Translations under genes and position numbers: made by a program
In this document: positions 18,556 to 28,243 of the stretch, piece by piece
Position numbering within the stretch: position 1 is the first letter of the stretch
Layout: every line of letters begins with the position of its first letter
Notes under the pieces: model-generated
The model's input: the letters and a program-made list of their open reading frames with translations, nothing else
Database searches by the model: none
Told to the model about the DNA's origin: nothing
Origin: Gammaproteobacteria bacterium
GTDB taxonomy: Bacteria; Pseudomonadota; Gammaproteobacteria; JAKDMP01
Assembly (NCBI GenBank): GCA_027018875.1
Contig: JALUYA010000024.1
Coordinates: 1-51,967 of the forward strand
Length of the DNA stretch: 51,967 bases
Direction of reading: 5' to 3'

Positions 18556-20643
18556 TCAGAACTCGCGACGCTTGCGGAACATTACGCCGAAGCCCAGCAA
18601 GGCCAGGGCGAGCAAGCCGATGATGCCCAAGCTTCCGCCGCCACCGCCGCCGCTCGGGGGCGCAGGAGGCGCCTTCTTGACGGTGATTGCAACGGTGGCA
18701 ATATTCGAATCGGCCACCCCGTCGTTCACCTTCCAGGTGAAGGCGTCGGCGCCGGTGTAGCCGCCGGTGGAGGTATAGGTGTAAGCGCCGGTGACGGCAT
18801 TGGTGAGGGTGACCGCGCCGTGGGCGGGCGGGGTCACGATCGCGAAGGCGAGCGTGCCGCTGCTCGGGTTGGTGGCGGAGAGCGTGCCGGCGGTCGCCTT
18901 GGCCGTGGTGGCGGAGAGCGTGCCGTCGCTGGCCACCGGGGGCACATCGGTGGTGGTCTTCCAGCTAGCCGTGACGGTACTGCCGAGCGGAACCTCGTAG
19001 TTGTTTGCCGCCCAGAAGCCGCCGAGCACCACGGTGGTGGTGGTGTCGGTGCCGCTGCTGGGGGGCGTCATCTGCTCGAGCGCGAGCGGATTCTCGGCGT
19101 GCGCCCAGGCGACGTTGGTGCCGATGAAAGTACCCGCGAACGGGGCGCCGCCGCTGGTGCTGTACTTAGCGGTCTGGGTGACGAGGGCGATGTTCACTCC
19201 ACTGCTCCCCCCGCCGATGCTCACCCCGCTCACGGCGACGGCGTTGGAGGCCAGCGCCTGGCCGAGCGGTGCGCGGAGGACAGCGGTGAATGCGGGAGCC
19301 GTGGGCGTGAGATCGTAGGTATCGCTCAGCACCCGGGTGACGAACCCGGCCTCACCGCTGCCCTGGGTGGAATCGGCCCAGCCCGAGGCCACGATCCTGC
19401 CGTCACCCTGCAGCAACAGTGCGGTGGGGGTGGGAGTGTAGTTGTAGCTGTTGATGTTGCTGAAGTCGATAAAGCTCACGCTGCCGCCGCCCGCGAAGTT
19501 GAGATCGGCCGTGCCGTCGGCGAGAAAGCGCCCGATCGGGAGGCTGTTTTTGCCGTTATTGGCACTGATGAGGATCTTGCCGTCGGGCTGCACCGCGACC
19601 GGTACCTGCCACGTCCCATTCGAAGCGGAGCCGAACGCAACCGGTTTGCCGCTGTTGAAGCCGGTATCCACCGTGCCGTCGGCGAGAAAGCGCCGCATAT
19701 CGACTGGGTATGGTGGTGAACCGCTCTCATCCAGCTCGCTGATTACGAAGCCGCCGTCCGGAGCTAGTGCCAGGCCGGCGAGAAGCTGGCTGGTCGCACC
19801 GGTGATGAAGCCGGTGCTGCCGAAGCCGGTATCCACCGTGCCGTCGGCCTTCAGCCGCGTGAGCTTCCAGCCCCCCGTAGCGCTTAGTTGGCAGCCTGCG
19901 ATGAGTGCGCCGTCGGGTTGCAGGGCGGGCAAGCAAAATTCGTACGCGGAATCGTTGATGGCGGCGATCTGCACGTAACCGGTGCCGCCGAAGGCGGTAT
20001 CGGCCGTGCCGTCGGGGTTGAACCGCCACACCGTGAGCTGCACGGTACCGGAATCCATCGCACTGCCGGTGACGAGAATATGGCCGTCGGCGGTGAGCGA
20101 GAGGCCAGAGGCGCTGGCGTAATTGTGGAGCGGATCAACCACAATACCGGTGCCCGCCGTACCAAAGCTGGTGTCGAGTGAGCCGTCCGGTTTGAATCGC
20201 ACCAGGATCATGGCTGGGGCACCGTATGTGTTTACGAGCATGCCGGCGGCGAGAATCCGGCCCTGGTCGTCCACGTCGATGGCGTACAAATACAGGTTAC
20301 CGCCGGTGAAGCCGGCTTGGGCGGCGGTCAGGGCAGTTTCCCCGCTGCCGCTGCCTACCGCGGTATCGAGCGAGCCGTCGGGTTTATAGACGTTAATCGC
20401 CCCGCCCTCGCTCGTAGGGGTTTGAAAATGCCCGGCCCACAGGATGTCGTGGTTGAGCGGGTTCATGGCTGCGGCGTTGGGGTTAAAGGTAGCGGTAGGG
20501 GTGAAGTCAAACACCACCGGCGTACCGCCGTTGAAGGCCGGGTCGACGTCACCTGGTGTGGCGAGGGCCGGCAGGGCCGCGAGACTTAGCGCCAGCGCGG
20601 CGCCGGTGGAAACAAGAAAACGTCGGGTTAAATGGAATTTCAT
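18556..20643 (-). CDS. Second half of the fused frame: delta-60 repeat secreted protein (internal start)
   Basis: This is the part of the long frame that can be read alone from the ATG at 20643 (695 aa), which has its own AGAGG box at the same distance as the first start. It carries a signal peptide ending ALPALA before TPGDVDPAF. Repeated units such as RFKPDGSLDTSFGTAGTG, RFNPDGTADTAFGG and RFLADGTVDTGFN are delta-60-type repeats likely forming a propeller. A cadherin-like domain (TPPAHGAVTLTNAVTGAYTY) precedes the tail GGGGGGSLGIIGLLALALL and RKRREF. The tail resembles GlyGly-CTERM sorting signals. Confidence 0.6.
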   Translation of the reverse strand: MKFHLTRRFLVSTGAALALSLAALPALATPGDVDPAFNGGTPVVFDFTPTATFNPNAAAMNPLNHDILWAGHFQTPTSEGGAINVYKPDGSLDTAVGSGSGETALTAAQAGFTGGNLYLYAIDVDDQGRILAAGMLVNTYGAPAMILVRFKPDGSLDTSFGTAGTGIVVDPLHNYASASGLSLTADGHILVTGSAMDSGTVQLTVWRFNPDGTADTAFGGTGYVQIAAINDSAYEFCLPALQPDGALIAGCQLSATGGWKLTRLKADGTVDTGFGSTGFITGATSQLLAGLALAPDGGFVISELDESGSPPYPVDMRRFLADGTVDTGFNSGKPVAFGSASNGTWQVPVAVQPDGKILISANNGKNSLPIGRFLADGTADLNFAGGGSVSFIDFSNINSYNYTPTPTALLLQGDGRIVASGWADSTQGSGEAGFVTRVLSDTYDLTPTAPAFTAVLRAPLGQALASNAVAVSGVSIGGGSSGVNIALVTQTAKYSTSGGAPFAGTFIGTNVAWAHAENPLALEQMTPPSSGTDTTTTVVLGGFWAANNYEVPLGSTVTASWKTTTDVPPVASDGTLSATTAKATAGTLSATNPSSGTLAFAIVTPPAHGAVTLTNAVTGAYTYTSTGGYTGADAFTWKVNDGVADSNIATVAITVKKAPPAPPSGGGGGGSLGIIGLLALALLGFGVMFRKRREF

Positions 20644-23600
20644 CGGAATGTCCTCTCTGGGGTGGATGGAAGTGGAAGTGGAACCGCGGCGGCGCAGCCA
20701 CCACGGCACGAGGGCGAGCAGCAGCAGGCCGAGGAGCGCGAACGGGCCGAAGGCACCGCCGCCGCCGCCACCGCCACTACTCGGGGGTGCAGGAGGCGCC
20801 TTCTTGACGGTGATCGCAACGGTGGCGGTGTTCGACGTTAAGCCGGTCACCGTGTCTTTGGCGGTGAAGGTGAAGCTGTCGGTGCCGCTGTAGCCACTGG
20901 TCGGGGTGTAGGTGAAGGCGCCGGTGGTGGCGTTCACGGTGAGGGTGCCATGGGCAGGCTGAGAAGCGCTGGCATAGCTCAGCGTATCGCTGCTCGGAGT
21001 GACTACCGCGGGCAGGGTGCCGCTAAGCGCCTGGCCGGCGTAGGTGGTGAGCGTCAGGTTGCTGGCCACCGGCGGCACCTGCCCCGGTGGCGGCGTGGCA
21101 TTGATGGTGATGGCAACGGTGGCGGTGTTCGACGTTAAGCCGGTCACCGTGTCCTTGGCGGTGAAGGTGAAGCTGTCGCTGCCGCTGTAGCCACTGGTCG
21201 GGGTGTAGGTGAAGGCGCCGGTAGTGGCGCTGACCGTGACCGTACCGTTAGTGGGCTGGGCGACCAGGGCGTAGCTCAGCGTATCGCTGCTCGGAGTGAC
21301 TACCGCAGGCAGGGTGCCGCTGAGCGCCTGACCGGCGTAGGTGGTGAGCGTCAGGTTGCTCGCCACCGGATTCACCTGCCCCGGCGGTGGGGTCGGGTTG
21401 ACGGTGATGGCAACGGTGGCGGTGTTCGACGTTAGCCCGGTCACCGTGTCCTTGGCGGTGAAGGTGAAGCTGTCGGTGCCGCTGTAGCCACTGGTCGGGG
21501 TGTAGGTGAAGGCGCCGGTGGTGGCGTTCACGGTGAGGGTGCCATGGGCAGGCTGAGAAGCGCTGGCATAGCTCAGCGTATCGCTGCTCGGAGTGACTAC
21601 CGCAGGCAGGGTGCCGCTGAGCGCCTGACCGGCGTAGGTGGTGAGCGTCAGGTTGCTGGCCACCGGTGCGACCTGCCCCGGCGGTGGGGTCGGGTTGACG
21701 GTGATCGCAACGGTGGCGGTGTTCGACGTTAGCCCGGTCACCGTATCTTTGGCGGTGAAGGTGAAGCTGTCGGTGCCGCTGTAGCCACTGGTCGGGGTGT
21801 AGGTGAAGGCGCCGGTAGTGGCGTTCACCGTCACCGCGCCGTGGGTGGGCTGGGTGACCGAGGCATAGCTCAGCGTATCGCCATAGGGCGCACTGGCCGA
21901 CAGGGTGGTGCTGATCGCGCTGTTCTCGTAGGTGGTCAGCGACAGGTTGTTGGCCACCGGGGAAAGCTGTACCGTGAAGGTGAAGGTACCCGTGGCACTC
22001 TGGTTGTAGGCATCGGTGACGGTCACGGTCACGGTGGTACTGCCGCTCTGGCCGCTCACCGGGGTGAGCGTGAGGGTGCAGGACCCCGCCGCGGTGCACG
22101 AGCTTGCACCCGTGATGTTGGCATCGGGCAGCAGCGTGGTGTTGGAGCTGGTTGCCGTCACCGTGAGTGGCGTGCCGCTGCCGGCCAGCGTGAAGGCCTC
22201 GCTGCCCGCGTTAGGCACCGTCACCGTCACATTGCTCAGTCCGCTTAGCGTCGGCGGCGCCGGCGGCACAACAATGGTGGTGCTCGCGGTTTGGACAAGA
22301 TCGGGGGCGCCGTTGGCCAGTTGCCCGCTCTGGGCAATGCTCGATCCCCCCGCGCCGGTGGCCTGGAGCGTGAGCGTCGCGGAGCCGGTACCGCCGTTGC
22401 CGGCGATGCTGCCCAGGTCGCAAGTAACGTACTGGGTGATGCTGTTCTGGGTGCAGCCGAACACACCGTTCGGGCCGGTGCTGCTGACCGCCACCACGTC
22501 GGCCCCGCTGCTCGGAGCCGGCAACGCCACCTGTACATCGGCGCTGGCGGAGCTGCTGTTGTTGGTGAGGATGTACTGGCTGTCGAACCGGCCGCCCGGC
22601 ACCACCGTGGCCGGCGCGCTGAGCCCGGCGGAAAGATCGGAGGTGCCGAAGAAATAGGCCGCACCCTGGCTGCTGTTGCCGCCGATGGTCTTGTTGTAGG
22701 CCCCCACCAGTGCGGTGGCGCCGTCGGCGGAGAGCGCGACCGAGCTGCCGAAGGAGTCTTGCGCCGCACCGTCCGAGGCCGTCAGTTCGGCGGTGTAGGT
22801 CCAGGTGGTTACCCAGCCGCTGGGCAGCTCGGTGTACACATAGGCTGTACCCCGGTAGCTATTGCTGCCGACGGTCTTGTCACCCGCTCCCACCAGCGCG
22901 GTGGTGCCGTTGGCGGAGAGCGCGACCGAGATACCGAAGCCGTCATTCACCGCGCCGTCCGAGGCGATCAGTTCGGCCGGGGTATTCGTGGACCAGTTGT
23001 TCGTGGTAGTGAACAGATAGGCCGCACCCTGGCCGCTGTTGTTGCCGACGGTCGTGTTATACGCCCCCACCAGCGCGGTGGCGCCGTCGCCGGAGAGCGC
23101 GACCGAGATGCCGAAGTAGTCTTGCGCCGCACCGTTCGCGGCGATTAGTTCGACCTGAGCGTTCGTGGACCAGTTGTTCGTGGTAGTGAACACATAGGCC
23201 GCACCCCGTTGGCTGTTGCCGCTGACGTTCTTTTCCCACGCCCCCACCAGCGCGGTGGCGCCGTCGGCGGAGAGCGCGACCGAGAAACCGAAGTAGTCAT
23301 TCGCCGCGCCGTCCGTGGCGGTCAGTTCGGCGGTCTGGCTCCAGGTGCCGGCGGTGAGCGTGAATACATAGGCCGCACCCCGGTAGCTGTTGCCGCCGAC
23401 GGTCTTGTAATCGGCTCCCACCAGCGCGATGGTGCCGTTGGCGGAGAGCGCGACCGAGTTGCCAAAGTGGTCACCCGTCGCGCCGAGCGTGGTGGTCAGT
23501 TCGGCCGGGGTATTCGTGGACCAGTTGTTCGTGGTAGTGAACACATAGGCCGCACCCTGACCGTAGTTGCTGCCGACGTTCTTGTAATCGGCTCCCACCA

Positions 23601-24591
23601 GCGCGGTGGCGCCGTTGGCGGAGAGCGCGACCGAGTCGCCGAAGCCGTCTTGCGCCGCGCCGAGCGAGACGGTCAATTCGGCGGCCTGGCTCCAGGTGCC
23701 CCCGGCGAGCGTGTACACATAGGCCGCACCTTGGCCGCTGTTGCCGCCGACGGTCTTGGTGGGTGCCCCCACCAGCGCGGTGGTGCCGTTGGCGGAAAGC
23801 GCGACCGAGCTGCCGAAGTTGTCACCCGCCGCGCCGTCCGCGGCGGTCACCTCCTGCTGCACCCAGACCAGCGGATCGACCGTGACGGGATAACGGGCGT
23901 GGGCGGCATCGAAGGCGAGTGTGAGGGTGGTGCCGCGGGACCTGAGGGTTGCCGGCAGAACTTTTCCCGTGGCATCGACGACCCGCAGCTTGCCGTAGCG
24001 CAGCCGACCCCAGGCCAGCGTGCCATGGTGCACGGTGGGCGCGGCGCCGGCGCTCAGTTGCAGTATTACTTTACCGCGGCCCGCCGGGGCCTTGTCGATG
24101 GTGAAACCCTGCTCGTAGCCCAGCGGCAGCACCCGCCACCATTCGCTGATATGCCGGCCGCGGTAGGCGATGCGGTTGGCATGGGGTGCACTGCGGACCA
24201 GCTGCACTGGCCGTAGCGTGCCCACCCGGCCCCAGGCGGTGAGGTGCAGGCTTAGCTTATCCCGGCCGGCGCTGAATGCCGGGCCATGGCGACCAAAGCA
24301 GCCGGAAAACCCGGAAGATGAGTGCGCCCCGGTGGGCAGCACGGCACAGCCGTTGCGCCCAATGGCGTAGGCGGGATTGTGTGCCGCCGCCCCGGCCTGG
24401 GTCCGGGCGATAGCGGCGACCAACCCCGCCGGGGCCAGGCCGATGCCGTGGCGCGCGGGTGCGGCCTGCGTCGATTGGGAGGTGGTGGGGGTGTGCTGCG
24501 CGGTCTGCGCGAAGGTCGGCAGGGCCGCGAGACTCAGTGCCAGCGCGGCGCCGGTGGAAACAAGAAAACGTCGGGTTAAATGGAATTTCAT
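18556..24591 (-). CDS. Fused pair of secreted repeat proteins (FG-GAP/Ig protein plus delta-60 protein)
   Basis: One 2011-aa open frame from the ATG at 24591 (AGAGG 8 nt upstream). Residues 1-31 are a twin-arginine-like signal peptide (TRRFLVSTGAALALS). About 240-650 hold seven FG-GAP-type repeats, each with a DxFGxSVALS core, suggesting a seven-bladed propeller. Then come DUF11/Ig-like regions and four 99-aa cadherin/Ig-like repeats (about 871-1261). Residues 1273-1302 are a Gly-rich stretch, a membrane segment and RRR, a normal protein end. Without any stop the frame continues through GSTSTSIHPREDIP into a second near-identical signal peptide at 1317, a delta-60-repeat region (PDGSLDTSFG type), a cadherin-like domain and another Gly-rich/membrane/RKRR tail. 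It may be one polyprotein, or two proteins using an internal start. Confidence 0.85.
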   Translation of the reverse strand: MKFHLTRRFLVSTGAALALSLAALPTFAQTAQHTPTTSQSTQAAPARHGIGLAPAGLVAAIARTQAGAAAHNPAYAIGRNGCAVLPTGAHSSSGFSGCFGRHGPAFSAGRDKLSLHLTAWGRVGTLRPVQLVRSAPHANRIAYRGRHISEWWRVLPLGYEQGFTIDKAPAGRGKVILQLSAGAAPTVHHGTLAWGRLRYGKLRVVDATGKVLPATLRSRGTTLTLAFDAAHARYPVTVDPLVWVQQEVTAADGAAGDNFGSSVALSANGTTALVGAPTKTVGGNSGQGAAYVYTLAGGTWSQAAELTVSLGAAQDGFGDSVALSANGATALVGADYKNVGSNYGQGAAYVFTTTNNWSTNTPAELTTTLGATGDHFGNSVALSANGTIALVGADYKTVGGNSYRGAAYVFTLTAGTWSQTAELTATDGAANDYFGFSVALSADGATALVGAWEKNVSGNSQRGAAYVFTTTNNWSTNAQVELIAANGAAQDYFGISVALSGDGATALVGAYNTTVGNNSGQGAAYLFTTTNNWSTNTPAELIASDGAVNDGFGISVALSANGTTALVGAGDKTVGSNSYRGTAYVYTELPSGWVTTWTYTAELTASDGAAQDSFGSSVALSADGATALVGAYNKTIGGNSSQGAAYFFGTSDLSAGLSAPATVVPGGRFDSQYILTNNSSSASADVQVALPAPSSGADVVAVSSTGPNGVFGCTQNSITQYVTCDLGSIAGNGGTGSATLTLQATGAGGSSIAQSGQLANGAPDLVQTASTTIVVPPAPPTLSGLSNVTVTVPNAGSEAFTLAGSGTPLTVTATSSNTTLLPDANITGASSCTAAGSCTLTLTPVSGQSGSTTVTVTVTDAYNQSATGTFTFTVQLSPVANNLSLTTYENSAISTTLSASAPYGDTLSYASVTQPTHGAVTVNATTGAFTYTPTSGYSGTDSFTFTAKDTVTGLTSNTATVAITVNPTPPPGQVAPVASNLTLTTYAGQALSGTLPAVVTPSSDTLSYASASQPAHGTLTVNATTGAFTYTPTSGYSGTDSFTFTAKDTVTGLTSNTATVAITVNPTPPPGQVNPVASNLTLTTYAGQALSGTLPAVVTPSSDTLSYALVAQPTNGTVTVSATTGAFTYTPTSGYSGSDSFTFTAKDTVTGLTSNTATVAITINATPPPGQVPPVASNLTLTTYAGQALSGTLPAVVTPSSDTLSYASASQPAHGTLTVNATTGAFTYTPTSGYSGTDSFTFTAKDTVTGLTSNTATVAITVKKAPPAPPSSGGGGGGGAFGPFALLGLLLLALVPWWLRRRGSTSTSIHPREDIPMKFHLTRRFLVSTGAALALSLAALPALATPGDVDPAFNGGTPVVFDFTPTATFNPNAAAMNPLNHDILWAGHFQTPTSEGGAINVYKPDGSLDTAVGSGSGETALTAAQAGFTGGNLYLYAIDVDDQGRILAAGMLVNTYGAPAMILVRFKPDGSLDTSFGTAGTGIVVDPLHNYASASGLSLTADGHILVTGSAMDSGTVQLTVWRFNPDGTADTAFGGTGYVQIAAINDSAYEFCLPALQPDGALIAGCQLSATGGWKLTRLKADGTVDTGFGSTGFITGATSQLLAGLALAPDGGFVISELDESGSPPYPVDMRRFLADGTVDTGFNSGKPVAFGSASNGTWQVPVAVQPDGKILISANNGKNSLPIGRFLADGTADLNFAGGGSVSFIDFSNINSYNYTPTPTALLLQGDGRIVASGWADSTQGSGEAGFVTRVLSDTYDLTPTAPAFTAVLRAPLGQALASNAVAVSGVSIGGGSSGVNIALVTQTAKYSTSGGAPFAGTFIGTNVAWAHAENPLALEQMTPPSSGTDTTTTVVLGGFWAANNYEVPLGSTVTASWKTTTDVPPVASDGTLSATTAKATAGTLSATNPSSGTLAFAIVTPPAHGAVTLTNAVTGAYTYTSTGGYTGADAFTWKVNDGVADSNIATVAITVKKAPPAPPSGGGGGGSLGIIGLLALALLGFGVMFRKRREF
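20569..20657 (-). repeat. Signal-peptide/leader cassette, copy 2
   Basis: About 89 bp covering the ribosome binding site and most of the signal-peptide code, differing from 24517-24604 at only a few positions. The copies lie in direct orientation at the two starts of the long frame. Confidence 0.85.
20644..20657 (-). promoter_or_regulatory. Internal ribosome binding site within the long frame
   Basis: On the minus strand CAGAGAGGACATTCCG directly precedes the internal ATG at 20643. It is nearly the same as the leader of the first start at 24591, and within the long frame it is translated as PREDIP. It supports independent initiation of the second protein. Confidence 0.6.
20809..21978 (-). 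repeat. Four 297-bp tandem repeats (99-aa cadherin/Ig-like units)
   Basis: The unit boundary word ggcggtgttcgac recurs at 20824, 21121, 21418 and 21715, an exact 297-bp period. Each unit encodes PVASNLTLTTYAGQALSGTL, then FTYTPTSGYSG and DSFTFTAKDTVTG. The three copies nearest the C-terminal tail are almost identical; the outermost (protein-proximal) one is more diverged. Copy number is likely to vary by recombination. Confidence 0.92.
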
Positions 24592-24604
24592 CGGAATGTC
24601 CTCT
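24517..24604 (-). repeat. Signal-peptide/leader cassette, copy 1
   Basis: Direct-repeat partner of 20569-20657. The near identity is stronger than expected from protein-level selection, because synonymous positions and the non-coding leader are also conserved. It points to recent duplication or gene conversion. Confidence 0.85.
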
Positions 24605-24662
24605 CGGGGTTGAGTGGCAGTGGAACGGGTGGGCGCGGGTGCGAGCAAAGGATGTTGGAGTT

Positions 24663-24926
24663 TCATGGCGAATGGCCTCCGTGCCCGCTGGATGAGCGCT
24701 GGTCGCGGTGGACAGCGAATACCGTCACTCCGCCCGCACCCAGGATGTCCCACAGCTCGCTGATGTTGTGAAAGGGGCGGCGCTTGCTGTCGGTGTAGAC
24801 GTCTTCAACCAGACCGACGAGCGTTCCAGAACCGCCGTCACGCCCTGCCGTGCGCCGATAGATACGCACGATGTAGCTGTCGACATCGGTATTGTCCGTA
24901 CTCAATTGCCGTTTCTGCCGGGCCAT
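24663..24926 (-). CDS. Small conserved cytosolic protein, 87 aa
   Basis: MARQKRQLSTDNTDVDSYIV starts at 24926 with GAGAG 6 nt upstream; a TTG at 24941 would add 5 residues. The core SYIVRIYRR, GTLVGLVEDV and RRPFHNISELWDIL looks like a small conserved family often found near large regulators and exported proteins, but I cannot name a function. There is no signal peptide. The stop overlaps an ATG at 24666 (ATGA) that is in frame with the long secreted protein, so translational coupling is possible. Confidence 0.65.
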   Translation of the reverse strand: MARQKRQLSTDNTDVDSYIVRIYRRTAGRDGGSGTLVGLVEDVYTDSKRRPFHNISELWDILGAGGVTVFAVHRDQRSSSGHGGHSP

Positions 24927-25027: not shown

Positions 25028-28000
25028 TCAGTGGCGGGTGAGGGCGCGGTGCAGGGCCTCGGTTTCGGCGCTGGGAGCGCAGTCGAGCACCTGGTCGAGC
25101 AATTCGGCGCAACGGCGGTAGACGGCCAGTCCCTCGGCGCGGCGCCCACTATCCAGGTGACAGCGCATCAGGCTTCGGTAGCAGGCTTCGGCCAGTTCGT
25201 CGAGAGCCAGGGCGTGTTCGTAACAAACGATTGCGGCGCAATTGTCACCGTTCGCGTGCAGGGCGTCGGCAGTGGCGGTGACGGCCCGCAGCAGGCGGTT
25301 ACGGATTCGTTCGCGCGCCGGCAGCGCCCACGGCGCTTCCTCGTCGCCATGAAGGAATGGGCCTCGATAGAGCGTCAACGCCGGTTTGAGCGCCGCAAGA
25401 GCGAGTTGGGCGTCATCCGGCAGCGCGTTTTCGACCCCATCCAGGTGACGCTCGCAGGCCCACAAGTCCACCCGGCACCGGGTCGGGTCCAGGCCTATCA
25501 ATCCCCCCTGGCGCTGTACCGCCTCGACCCCGATCAGTCGGCGCAGGCGATGCAACGTTGTGGCCAGTGCCTGCTGCGCGGCGTCGCCCTCGGCCTCCGG
25601 CCACAGGGCATCGGCGAGGCGCACTTCGGGAACTTCGCGCCGGCCCAGTGCCACGATCGCCTTGAGCAGTGCGAGCGGGCGTTTCTGGCTTTTGCCCTCG
25701 AAACGCAACGGTATATCATCCTTTCGTACCTCGAAATGACCTAGGGTGGTGATGCGCAGCGGCCACGGCCAGTTGCTCAAATGCACCGGGGGGTGTTCCG
25801 GCGCGAGCCGCCGTAATCGGATCAACCGCTGCACGAACTCGGTCTCTATGTCGTGTTCGAGGGCGATGACGCACAACTCGGCCATCGTGGAGCTGTTCCA
25901 CAAGGACGAGGTGGTGAAGTCGTGAACCCGGCACACTGCCATAAATTCGCGCAGCGTACTCAACATCTTCCGCCGGTGGCCGCGGGTGCGGGCAAATTCG
26001 GTCTGCGCCAGCAGTGCGGCATAGGCAATGGTGCCGCTGTGGCTGGCCGCGGCCAGATCCCTGGCTTCGGCCACCGCCGCATCGGCGGCAGCCGTTTCGC
26101 CCCGTAGCTCAAGTGCCCGCGCCAGTGCCGGCAGCACCGTCCCCTGGGCCCAAGGCACGCCGGCCCGGCGAGCTAGTTGCAGTGCGGTTTCGGCGTGTTC
26201 GTGCATTGTCGCGACATCACCCCGGTGCATGGCCGCCGTAAAGACCTGGTAGTGGTAGTGGCAGGCATCGAGCAGACGGGCGGGCTGGAGTACCGCACTC
26301 ATGCGCGCGAGCAGTTCGTCCGTGGCGGCCAGATCACCGGCGGTAACCTGGCCCCAGGTCGCCTGCGCCAGGAGCATGAAATCCCACATATGAGTGCCGC
26401 TGCGTTCGGCCAGTTCGAGACCACGCTCAGCCATCGTCACGCAGCCTTGAGTATCCGAACGCATCCACAATTCCATGGCCCGAATCGCACACCAGACGAC
26501 CCCGATCAGCGGGGCCGCATCGATGTGTTTGGCCCGCGGCTGCAGCAGGGCGGTAATGCTCGCGGCCCGCGCCAGATCGCCGCTCCACCAGACATAATAG
26601 GGTACCAACCGGCTGCCGGCTAACAGCCGCAGGCTCTCGTTTTGTTCGATGAGTCGATGCATACGCCGGGTCCAGTCCGGCAGATCCGGATGCTGCGGCT
26701 GCCGGTACGAGAGCGCCGTGAAGATGCCGATCACCGCCCGCGCTTCGGCCTCGGCATCGGGAAAGCACGGATAGCGTTCGCGTAACCGCTCGAAGCGTTC
26801 GATCCAGCAGTCGAGTGCGGTGAAATTTCCCCACTCGTAGACGAAGCTGTCTACCACGCCCGACCAGGCGCAAAAGCACCCGCGGGCATCATCGCCGGAC
26901 TCAAAGCCTTCCAGTGCGGCGGAAAATAGTGCGCGGGCCATCGGTTGGTCGAAAGGCAACCGACAGATGGCCTGCCAATAAAGCAGCCCGGGCCGGGCCT
27001 CGATCTCGCTGCCGGGCATGGCCTCCAGGGCCGACTCGATGAGCCGGGTACGGCCCTCCGCCAACCAGGTTGGCGCTTGGGCCGCCAGCAGGGTTGCGAC
27101 CTGTGCCCAATCTCCAAGCTCGACCAACAGTTCGAGCGCATCTTCGCTCTGGTGGTCCTCGATCAGCAGCCGCGCGGCGCGATGGCGTACCGCGTCGAGT
27201 CGTTTCGGAGACCAGCATTCCCGGGCCCGGCGCAGCAGGCAGTCACGAAATAACGGATGATACTCGTAAGCCGGCCGGGCGCCGACGTTACGGCTGGTGA
27301 AGTAGTTGAGCCGGCACAGCTCGGCAATCCGCGCGGCGGCCTTGGGATCCTCGCACTGGCGGGCAAGAAGAGCCGCCGGCATGCGCGGCAACCAGGCGCT
27401 TTGCAGCAAGGTCTCCAGTGTTTCCGGTGCGACCCCGGATAGAACCTCGGCGGAAAAGTAGTCGAACAACGGCTCGCTCGCATCAGCCGCTACGACCGGC
27501 GACGCCGGGCTTTGTGCCCCCGCCTGTTCCAGGAGCAGGGTAAAGCCCGCGGCCCAGCCCCGTACCTGGCGATGTAGTTTATCCACACTTGCGGGCGTCA
27601 GCCGTTTGCCAAAGCGCTTCAGGGCGATAGCGCGGGCCTCGGTGACGTCCAGCATCAAGGCACTGTCGTCGATAATGCCAATGGATTCGCAGGCCCGCAG
27701 ACGTGCGAATGCGATCCCGGGTGGACTGCGGCTGGTCAGAATCACGCTGATCGAATTCGGCGCCTGCTCCAGACCTGCCGCCAGCAGGGTTGCGGTGATC
27801 GAATCATTGGGAAGTACCTGGCAATTGTCGAATACCAGAATGCTCTCGGGTTGGATGAGTTCAAAGAAGCGTTCGAAAAAGCTCCGTGCGTAGGCGTCGA
27901 GTCCGGCCAGGTATTCCGGGGTCAGATACGGCAGTTGCGTCGCCCGCTGCGGCGCAACGGCCTGCACCGCGAGACGCAGATAGTGAAACAGCGTCGCCGG

Positions 28001-28243
28001 ATAGCGGTCGCGGCTGTCGAGTTGATACCAGATACAGGGGCGCCGGCTGGCCTCGACGTAGGTGCTGGCCAACACGGTTTTACCGCTACCGGGAGCGCCG
28101 ACGACCCAGGCCGCCGAGTGGGCGAGCGTCTCCCGCAGCCGCTGCTGTAGTCGTTGGCGTCGATAGGCGTGGGGCAGACGTGGCCTGGCCAATTTTAATG
28201 GTAGTTTCGCACCCCCCGATCGTGGTGCTGCTGTGCCCGGCAT
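25028..28243 (-). CDS. MalT-like STAND ATPase regulator with C-terminal BTAD/winged-helix domain
   Basis: A 1071-aa cytoplasmic regulator. The N-terminal KLARPRLPHAYRR signature and the Walker A GAPGSGKT (49-56) and Walker B ILVFDN (135-140) motifs match MalT/LuxR-type signal-transduction ATPases. The middle is a long helical TPR-like sensor region. Instead of a LuxR helix-turn-helix, the C-terminus has an OmpR-like winged helix (about 830-915, ITTLGHFEVRKDDIPLRFEG) and a bacterial transcriptional activation domain (about 920-1071, LALAALKPALTLYRGPFLHG, ERIRNRLLRAV). The start has GGAG 6 nt upstream. It lies upstream of the small and secreted genes on the same strand and is their likely regulator. 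Confidence 0.88.
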   Translation of the reverse strand: MPGTAAPRSGGAKLPLKLARPRLPHAYRRQRLQQRLRETLAHSAAWVVGAPGSGKTVLASTYVEASRRPCIWYQLDSRDRYPATLFHYLRLAVQAVAPQRATQLPYLTPEYLAGLDAYARSFFERFFELIQPESILVFDNCQVLPNDSITATLLAAGLEQAPNSISVILTSRSPPGIAFARLRACESIGIIDDSALMLDVTEARAIALKRFGKRLTPASVDKLHRQVRGWAAGFTLLLEQAGAQSPASPVVAADASEPLFDYFSAEVLSGVAPETLETLLQSAWLPRMPAALLARQCEDPKAAARIAELCRLNYFTSRNVGARPAYEYHPLFRDCLLRRARECWSPKRLDAVRHRAARLLIEDHQSEDALELLVELGDWAQVATLLAAQAPTWLAEGRTRLIESALEAMPGSEIEARPGLLYWQAICRLPFDQPMARALFSAALEGFESGDDARGCFCAWSGVVDSFVYEWGNFTALDCWIERFERLRERYPCFPDAEAEARAVIGIFTALSYRQPQHPDLPDWTRRMHRLIEQNESLRLLAGSRLVPYYVWWSGDLARAASITALLQPRAKHIDAAPLIGVVWCAIRAMELWMRSDTQGCVTMAERGLELAERSGTHMWDFMLLAQATWGQVTAGDLAATDELLARMSAVLQPARLLDACHYHYQVFTAAMHRGDVATMHEHAETALQLARRAGVPWAQGTVLPALARALELRGETAAADAAVAEARDLAAASHSGTIAYAALLAQTEFARTRGHRRKMLSTLREFMAVCRVHDFTTSSLWNSSTMAELCVIALEHDIETEFVQRLIRLRRLAPEHPPVHLSNWPWPLRITTLGHFEVRKDDIPLRFEGKSQKRPLALLKAIVALGRREVPEVRLADALWPEAEGDAAQQALATTLHRLRRLIGVEAVQRQGGLIGLDPTRCRVDLWACERHLDGVENALPDDAQLALAALKPALTLYRGPFLHGDEEAPWALPARERIRNRLLRAVTATADALHANGDNCAAIVCYEHALALDELAEACYRSLMRCHLDSGRRAEGLAVYRRCAELLDQVLDCAPSAETEALHRALTRH

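Follow-up and report, generated by a model that had tools for sequence, protein, structure and literature searches.

Two surface protein genes in one open frame

The window, meaning the whole 51,967-nucleotide stretch of DNA that we analysed, comes from an uncultured gammaproteobacterium in which two cell-surface protein genes share a single frame of 2,011 codons. Translating the minus strand, we find that this frame runs from an ATG at 24591 to a stop codon at 18556-18558 (2,011 codons plus the stop) and spans two complete proteins. A preliminary description of this DNA had placed one open frame linking two complete exported proteins at 18556-24591 without naming the strand; translation confirms the frame, the coordinates are correct, and the strand is minus. 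The plus strand of the interval has stops throughout. An alternative GTG at 24753 lengthens the joined frame to 2,065 amino acids. The features of the locus, all on the minus strand, are listed below in the direction of reading.

24664..24923, minus: possible small upstream gene, 86 aa (translation)
24509..24625, minus: start module, first copy (DNA alignment)
20644..24591, minus: gene 1 plus the 14-codon linker, 1,316 codons (translation; Pfam)
20686..20772, minus: first sorting tail, GGGGGGGAFGPFALLGLLLLALVPWWLRRR (GGGGGGAFGPFALLGLLLLALVPWWLRRR), no stop behind it (tail profile, 39 bits)
20644..20685, minus: 14-codon linker, GSTSTSIHPREDIP, matching the gene 1 upstream region including its ribosome-binding site (DNA alignments)
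20561..20677, minus: start module, second copy, with upstream region, ribosome-binding site and signal peptide (DNA alignment)
18556..20643, minus: gene 2, 695 aa (translation; profile matches)
18635..18708, minus: tail-proximal stretch of gene 2, 89% DNA identity to 20762-20835 in gene 1
18565..18651, minus: second sorting tail, stop two codons on (tail profile, 30 bits)

Gene 1 encodes, in order, a signal peptide, seven FG-GAP_2 repeats, several Big_9/cadherin-like (Ig-like) repeats and a Gly-rich/hydrophobic/RRR tail. Its Pfam matches are strong (FG-GAP_2, 2e-78; Big_9, 4e-55), its domains are complete and internal stops are absent. Four of the Ig-like repeats lie at 297-nt spacing in 20804-21994; two are 95% identical and one 88%, suggesting a recent expansion or homogenisation. 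Gene 2 encodes a signal peptide, delta-60/DUF5122 beta-propeller repeats, a Big_9 (Ig-like) domain, and a GlyGly-type tail that ends in RKRREF before its stop (DUF5122, 2e-29; Big_9, 6e-8; TIGR02608, 5e-38). No close relative of gene 2 appeared in the collections searched, the contig scan included, and the class genomes gave weak repeat matches only, the best by E-value at 32% identity.

Upstream, the 86-aa frame has no family match in Pfam. Overlapping its TGA is an in-frame ATG at 24666 (MKLQHPLLAPAP...), from which gene 1 could alternatively start, further upstream. On the same strand, also upstream, 25028-28243 encodes a large regulator with a MalT-like ATPase/TPR region and a C-terminal BTAD domain, which possibly controls the gene 1/gene 2 pair.

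Since no stop follows gene 1, each ribosome that completes gene 1 has to proceed into gene 2. If the sequence is correct, the joined chain must be made.

A duplicated start module at the junction

The interval between the first tail and the second start, earlier put at 14 residues, is exactly 14 residues long (GSTSTSIHPREDIP) and is followed by the methionine at 20643; the ribosome-binding site claimed for this start is also present, as GAGAGG. Performing DNA alignments, we find that the second start region closely resembles the first. The segments 20561..20677 and 24509..24625 are 92% identical over 117 nt, with an exact run of 67 nt that reaches from the ribosome-binding site to within the signal peptide. 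This homology reaches upstream to about the first codon past RRR. Over their first 27 codons the two signal peptides differ at 4 of 81 bases, two of the differences being silent, and the predicted pairing of the ribosome-binding site is -6.5 kcal/mol for gene 2 versus -5.8 for gene 1. The host genome holds only these two copies of the module, and a leader search over 143 genomes including the host did not find it in the 142 related ones. From the alignments, one start module is a copy of the other, in either direction.

Because the two regions remain similar ahead of the start codon, the linker is the copied gene 1 upstream region translated as protein. It is not protein-like and, by its composition from copied DNA, it is not an evolved linker. 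As a start-region copy, it places the first tail directly against the start module. The openness of the linker itself was discarded as evidence, as 14 codons without a stop are expected by chance at about 0.6-0.75 (simple base-composition estimates, 60-70% GC); we relied instead on the absence of a stop behind the tail.

The other ends of the two genes are also alike. The 74 nt just before each tail (18635-18708 and 20762-20835; repeat family D9) share the 89% DNA identity listed above. With both the start modules and the tail-proximal DNA alike, gene 1 and gene 2 share both ends and differ in the middle, like cassettes that carry different passenger domains. The start modules lie 3,948 nt, or 1,316 codons, apart. 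As they share a frame, recombination between them would excise gene 1 cleanly and bring gene 2 under the first start.

As the second start region matches that of gene 1, ribosome-binding site included, internal initiation at 20643 is expected. It had been offered as an alternative to the joined chain; the matching module makes it likely in addition to the run-on. The two could then be separate genes in function, with translation of gene 2 starting internally at 20643 and the run-on chains being degraded. The shared start module and its ribosome-binding site would suit this arrangement, but gene 1 would yield no stable product, all of its completed chains being run-ons, and gene 1 has nonetheless kept complete domains and no internal stop. 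We regard such a purely two-gene locus as very unlikely.

The export route had been used as a further argument for internal initiation. Both signal peptides contain TRRFLV, and TatC is encoded in the host genome. The name "twin-arginine-like" given to the second signal thus holds for the motif but not for its conservation: those related signal peptides that are readable by eye lack the twin arginine. As it is missing there, Sec export of both proteins appears more likely than Tat export. For the same reason, the argument that a Tat-type signal favours internal initiation is weak, and we rejected Tat export as a ground for it.

A true stop or frame change near 20640-20690 might also have been lost in metagenome assembly. 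The host genome is a draft of 54 contigs, most of the relatives are metagenome-assembled genomes too, and the 67-nt exact repeat is of the kind that may confuse short-read assembly. In addition, one shifted frame would close with a TGA that overlaps the ATG at 20643. However, a path swap through the 67-nt repeat would alter the body that follows it and not the in-frame join, and the second run-on of this genome, described below, would require a second error of the same sort. We consider a sequence error unlikely. Mis-assembly through the repeat was rejected as a sole cause; it cannot alone create the join, because unique diverged sequence connects the tail to the repeat.

Sorting tails, standalone relatives and a second run-on

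Both tails have a Gly-rich motif, a hydrophobic helix and a basic cluster, which is the tripartite GlyGly-CTERM layout, and by this layout we term both GlyGly-type. The tail profile that scored them was built from 20 tails, one of which was the first tail itself. The first tail also gave a partial match to NF038115, under the cut-off of that model. TIGR03501 reported neither tail of the joined frame (contig C24) even at E 10; elsewhere in the host genome, it matched above its cut-off on contig C39 and below it on contig C34. The second tail lies at the extreme C-terminus, whereas about 709 codons follow the first. Because TIGR03501 is silent and the first tail is not C-terminal, gene 1 was not counted as a GlyGly-CTERM member in the strict sense.

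The preliminary description had invoked a rhombosortase-like protease, and the same genome does encode a rhombosortase (contig G000:C1), which matches TIGR03902 at 128.5 bits against a cut-off of 84. The topology proposed with it is coherent: the tail would lead inward and the second signal peptide outward.

We also checked the relatives of gene 1. Three proteins from Natronospirales metagenome assemblies (L179, L180 and L181) are 52-57% identical to it over most of the protein, and more distant relatives occur elsewhere. All five intact relatives with a readable tail (L179, L180, L181, L186 and L188) reach a stop 7-20 codons past the tail and are standalone, with no gene 2 joined; L180 and L181 carry extensions of 19-20 codons past the tail. 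L182 was excluded from this count, its frame being broken, and in G001, the only same-family genome, the frames of gene 1 paralogues reach the contig end and yield no tail. No close relative with both genes was found among the collections searched. The joined frame, which it had been suggested to seek in related genomes, is absent from these relatives and, as far as can be seen, appears unique to the host genome.

Searching the tail profile against 369 genomes of the class and the host genome, we obtained 56 tails from 35 genomes. The run-on survey of the host genome covers its detected tails, 6 of the 56. A stop follows within 0-27 codons of the matched tail in 54 of the 56 tails (median 5, from the 55 with a measurable stop). 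Both tails without a nearby stop belong to the host genome, that is 2 of 6 there versus 0 of 50 in the 34 other genomes (Fisher about 0.01 by hand, for tails that are non-independent and a profile that included both exceptions). This concentration of run-ons in the host genome is suggestive.

The second run-on (L065; G000:C34, 2483-3625) has a tail ending in FVLFTRRR, followed by 39 codons, an ATG, a signal peptide and an OmpA/DUF4892 protein. Its internal ATG has a ribosome-binding site with a predicted pairing of -7.3 kcal/mol, and the closest full-length relatives of the OmpA/DUF4892 protein are encoded separately, each in an open frame of its own (about 316-434 codons). Compared with the joined frame, the downstream protein and the linker are both unrelated. 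Read in another frame, the C34 linker gives MGLQWGMNPDAVEAGEFKAQRLDVNDDAVAYWTTGEQAK, closed by a TGA that overlaps the ATG of the OmpA gene; an indel may therefore have occurred there, or a small overlapping gene may be present.

These data bear on whether the joined frame was selected as a polyprotein, existing to supply equal amounts of both proteins from a chain cut by rhombosortase and signal peptidase. The complete in-frame layout, the consistent topology and the encoded rhombosortase all speak for it, as do two tail-to-signal-peptide run-ons in one genome against none for the 50 tails of 34 other genomes. On the other side, gene 1 relatives have their stop behind the tail, the linker consists of a copied start region whose plausible ribosome-binding site would defeat equal dosage, and the C34 run-on joins an unrelated protein through an unrelated linker. 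As no relative conserves the joined frame, the selected polyprotein is unsupported, and we find it improbable. It likewise seems quite improbable that obligate surface polyproteins are made in this lineage, with a rhombosortase tail inside the chain set against an internal signal peptide so that a single round of translation yields two lipid-anchored surface proteins, at each of two loci.

A probable tolerated run-on and its comparison with known systems

We favour, with moderate confidence, a recent and lineage-specific run-on over an evolved polyprotein; it would be tolerated since the discarded parts lie between two cuts. This reading draws on the open frame, the copied start module, the rhombosortase gene, the standalone relatives and the C34 run-on. 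A copy of the gene 1 upstream region, ribosome-binding site and signal peptide would have landed in frame right after RRR, with loss of the stop. The first tail would act as a stop-transfer segment, leaving RRR inside, and the second signal peptide would restart export. Signal peptidase and rhombosortase would cut on either side, giving two surface proteins, and the tail, the linker and the signal peptide would be discarded. Gene 2 would additionally be started on its own at 20643.

Since none of the tail, the linker and the second signal peptide would be kept, losing the stop may carry little cost. A low cost would fit both the 19-20 codon extensions of L180 and L181 and the C34 run-on. Thus, the polyprotein idea of the preliminary description stands as regards the joined frame, the topology and the rhombosortase, but not as regards conservation and selection, given that the relatives stop, the linker is copied and gene 2 has an independent start.

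If the sequence holds, the locus offers a natural experiment on whether a C-terminal sorting tail needs its terminal position: the membrane machinery would have to handle the internal tail and the internal signal peptide as though each were an ordinary protein end. Where a C-terminal tail is cut away, the position of the stop may be weakly constrained, and in-frame gene fusion may become possible. Gene callers would list such run-on loci as giant single proteins.

In Vibrio cholerae, rhombosortase removes the tail of VesB, cutting at glycines, and the cut VesB gains a glycerophosphoethanolamine-containing moiety and then goes to the surface (PMC6219818). Since rhombosortase removes the VesB tail (PMC6219818), residues past the tail would not be part of the mature protein. 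Rhombosortase substrates were described with the motif at the extreme C-terminus (PMC3237569), and in a 2026 paper the motif acts as an independent module (PMC13393428). Like the GlyGly-CTERM/rhombosortase substrates (TIGR03501/TIGR03902; VesB), both proteins of the joined frame have the tripartite tail and their genome encodes a rhombosortase. Unlike in those substrates, the first tail here is internal to the frame, and TIGR03501 reports neither of the two tails; both points weigh against our reading.

The standalone FG-GAP/GlyGly-tail genes (L179, L180 and L181) resemble gene 1 at the 52-57% identity given above and in having the same tail type; unlike gene 1, they stop about 10-19 codons past the tail and lack a joined gene 2. 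A literature search for bacterial polyproteins with internal signal peptides found none in the collection of papers searched. In Bradyrhizobium japonicum, the cytochrome b/c1 precursor (fbcH) is a single chain that contains an internal signal peptide and is cut into two proteins. In contrast to fbcH, whose joined frame is functional and established, the frame described here is not conserved, and its first part has its own sorting tail.
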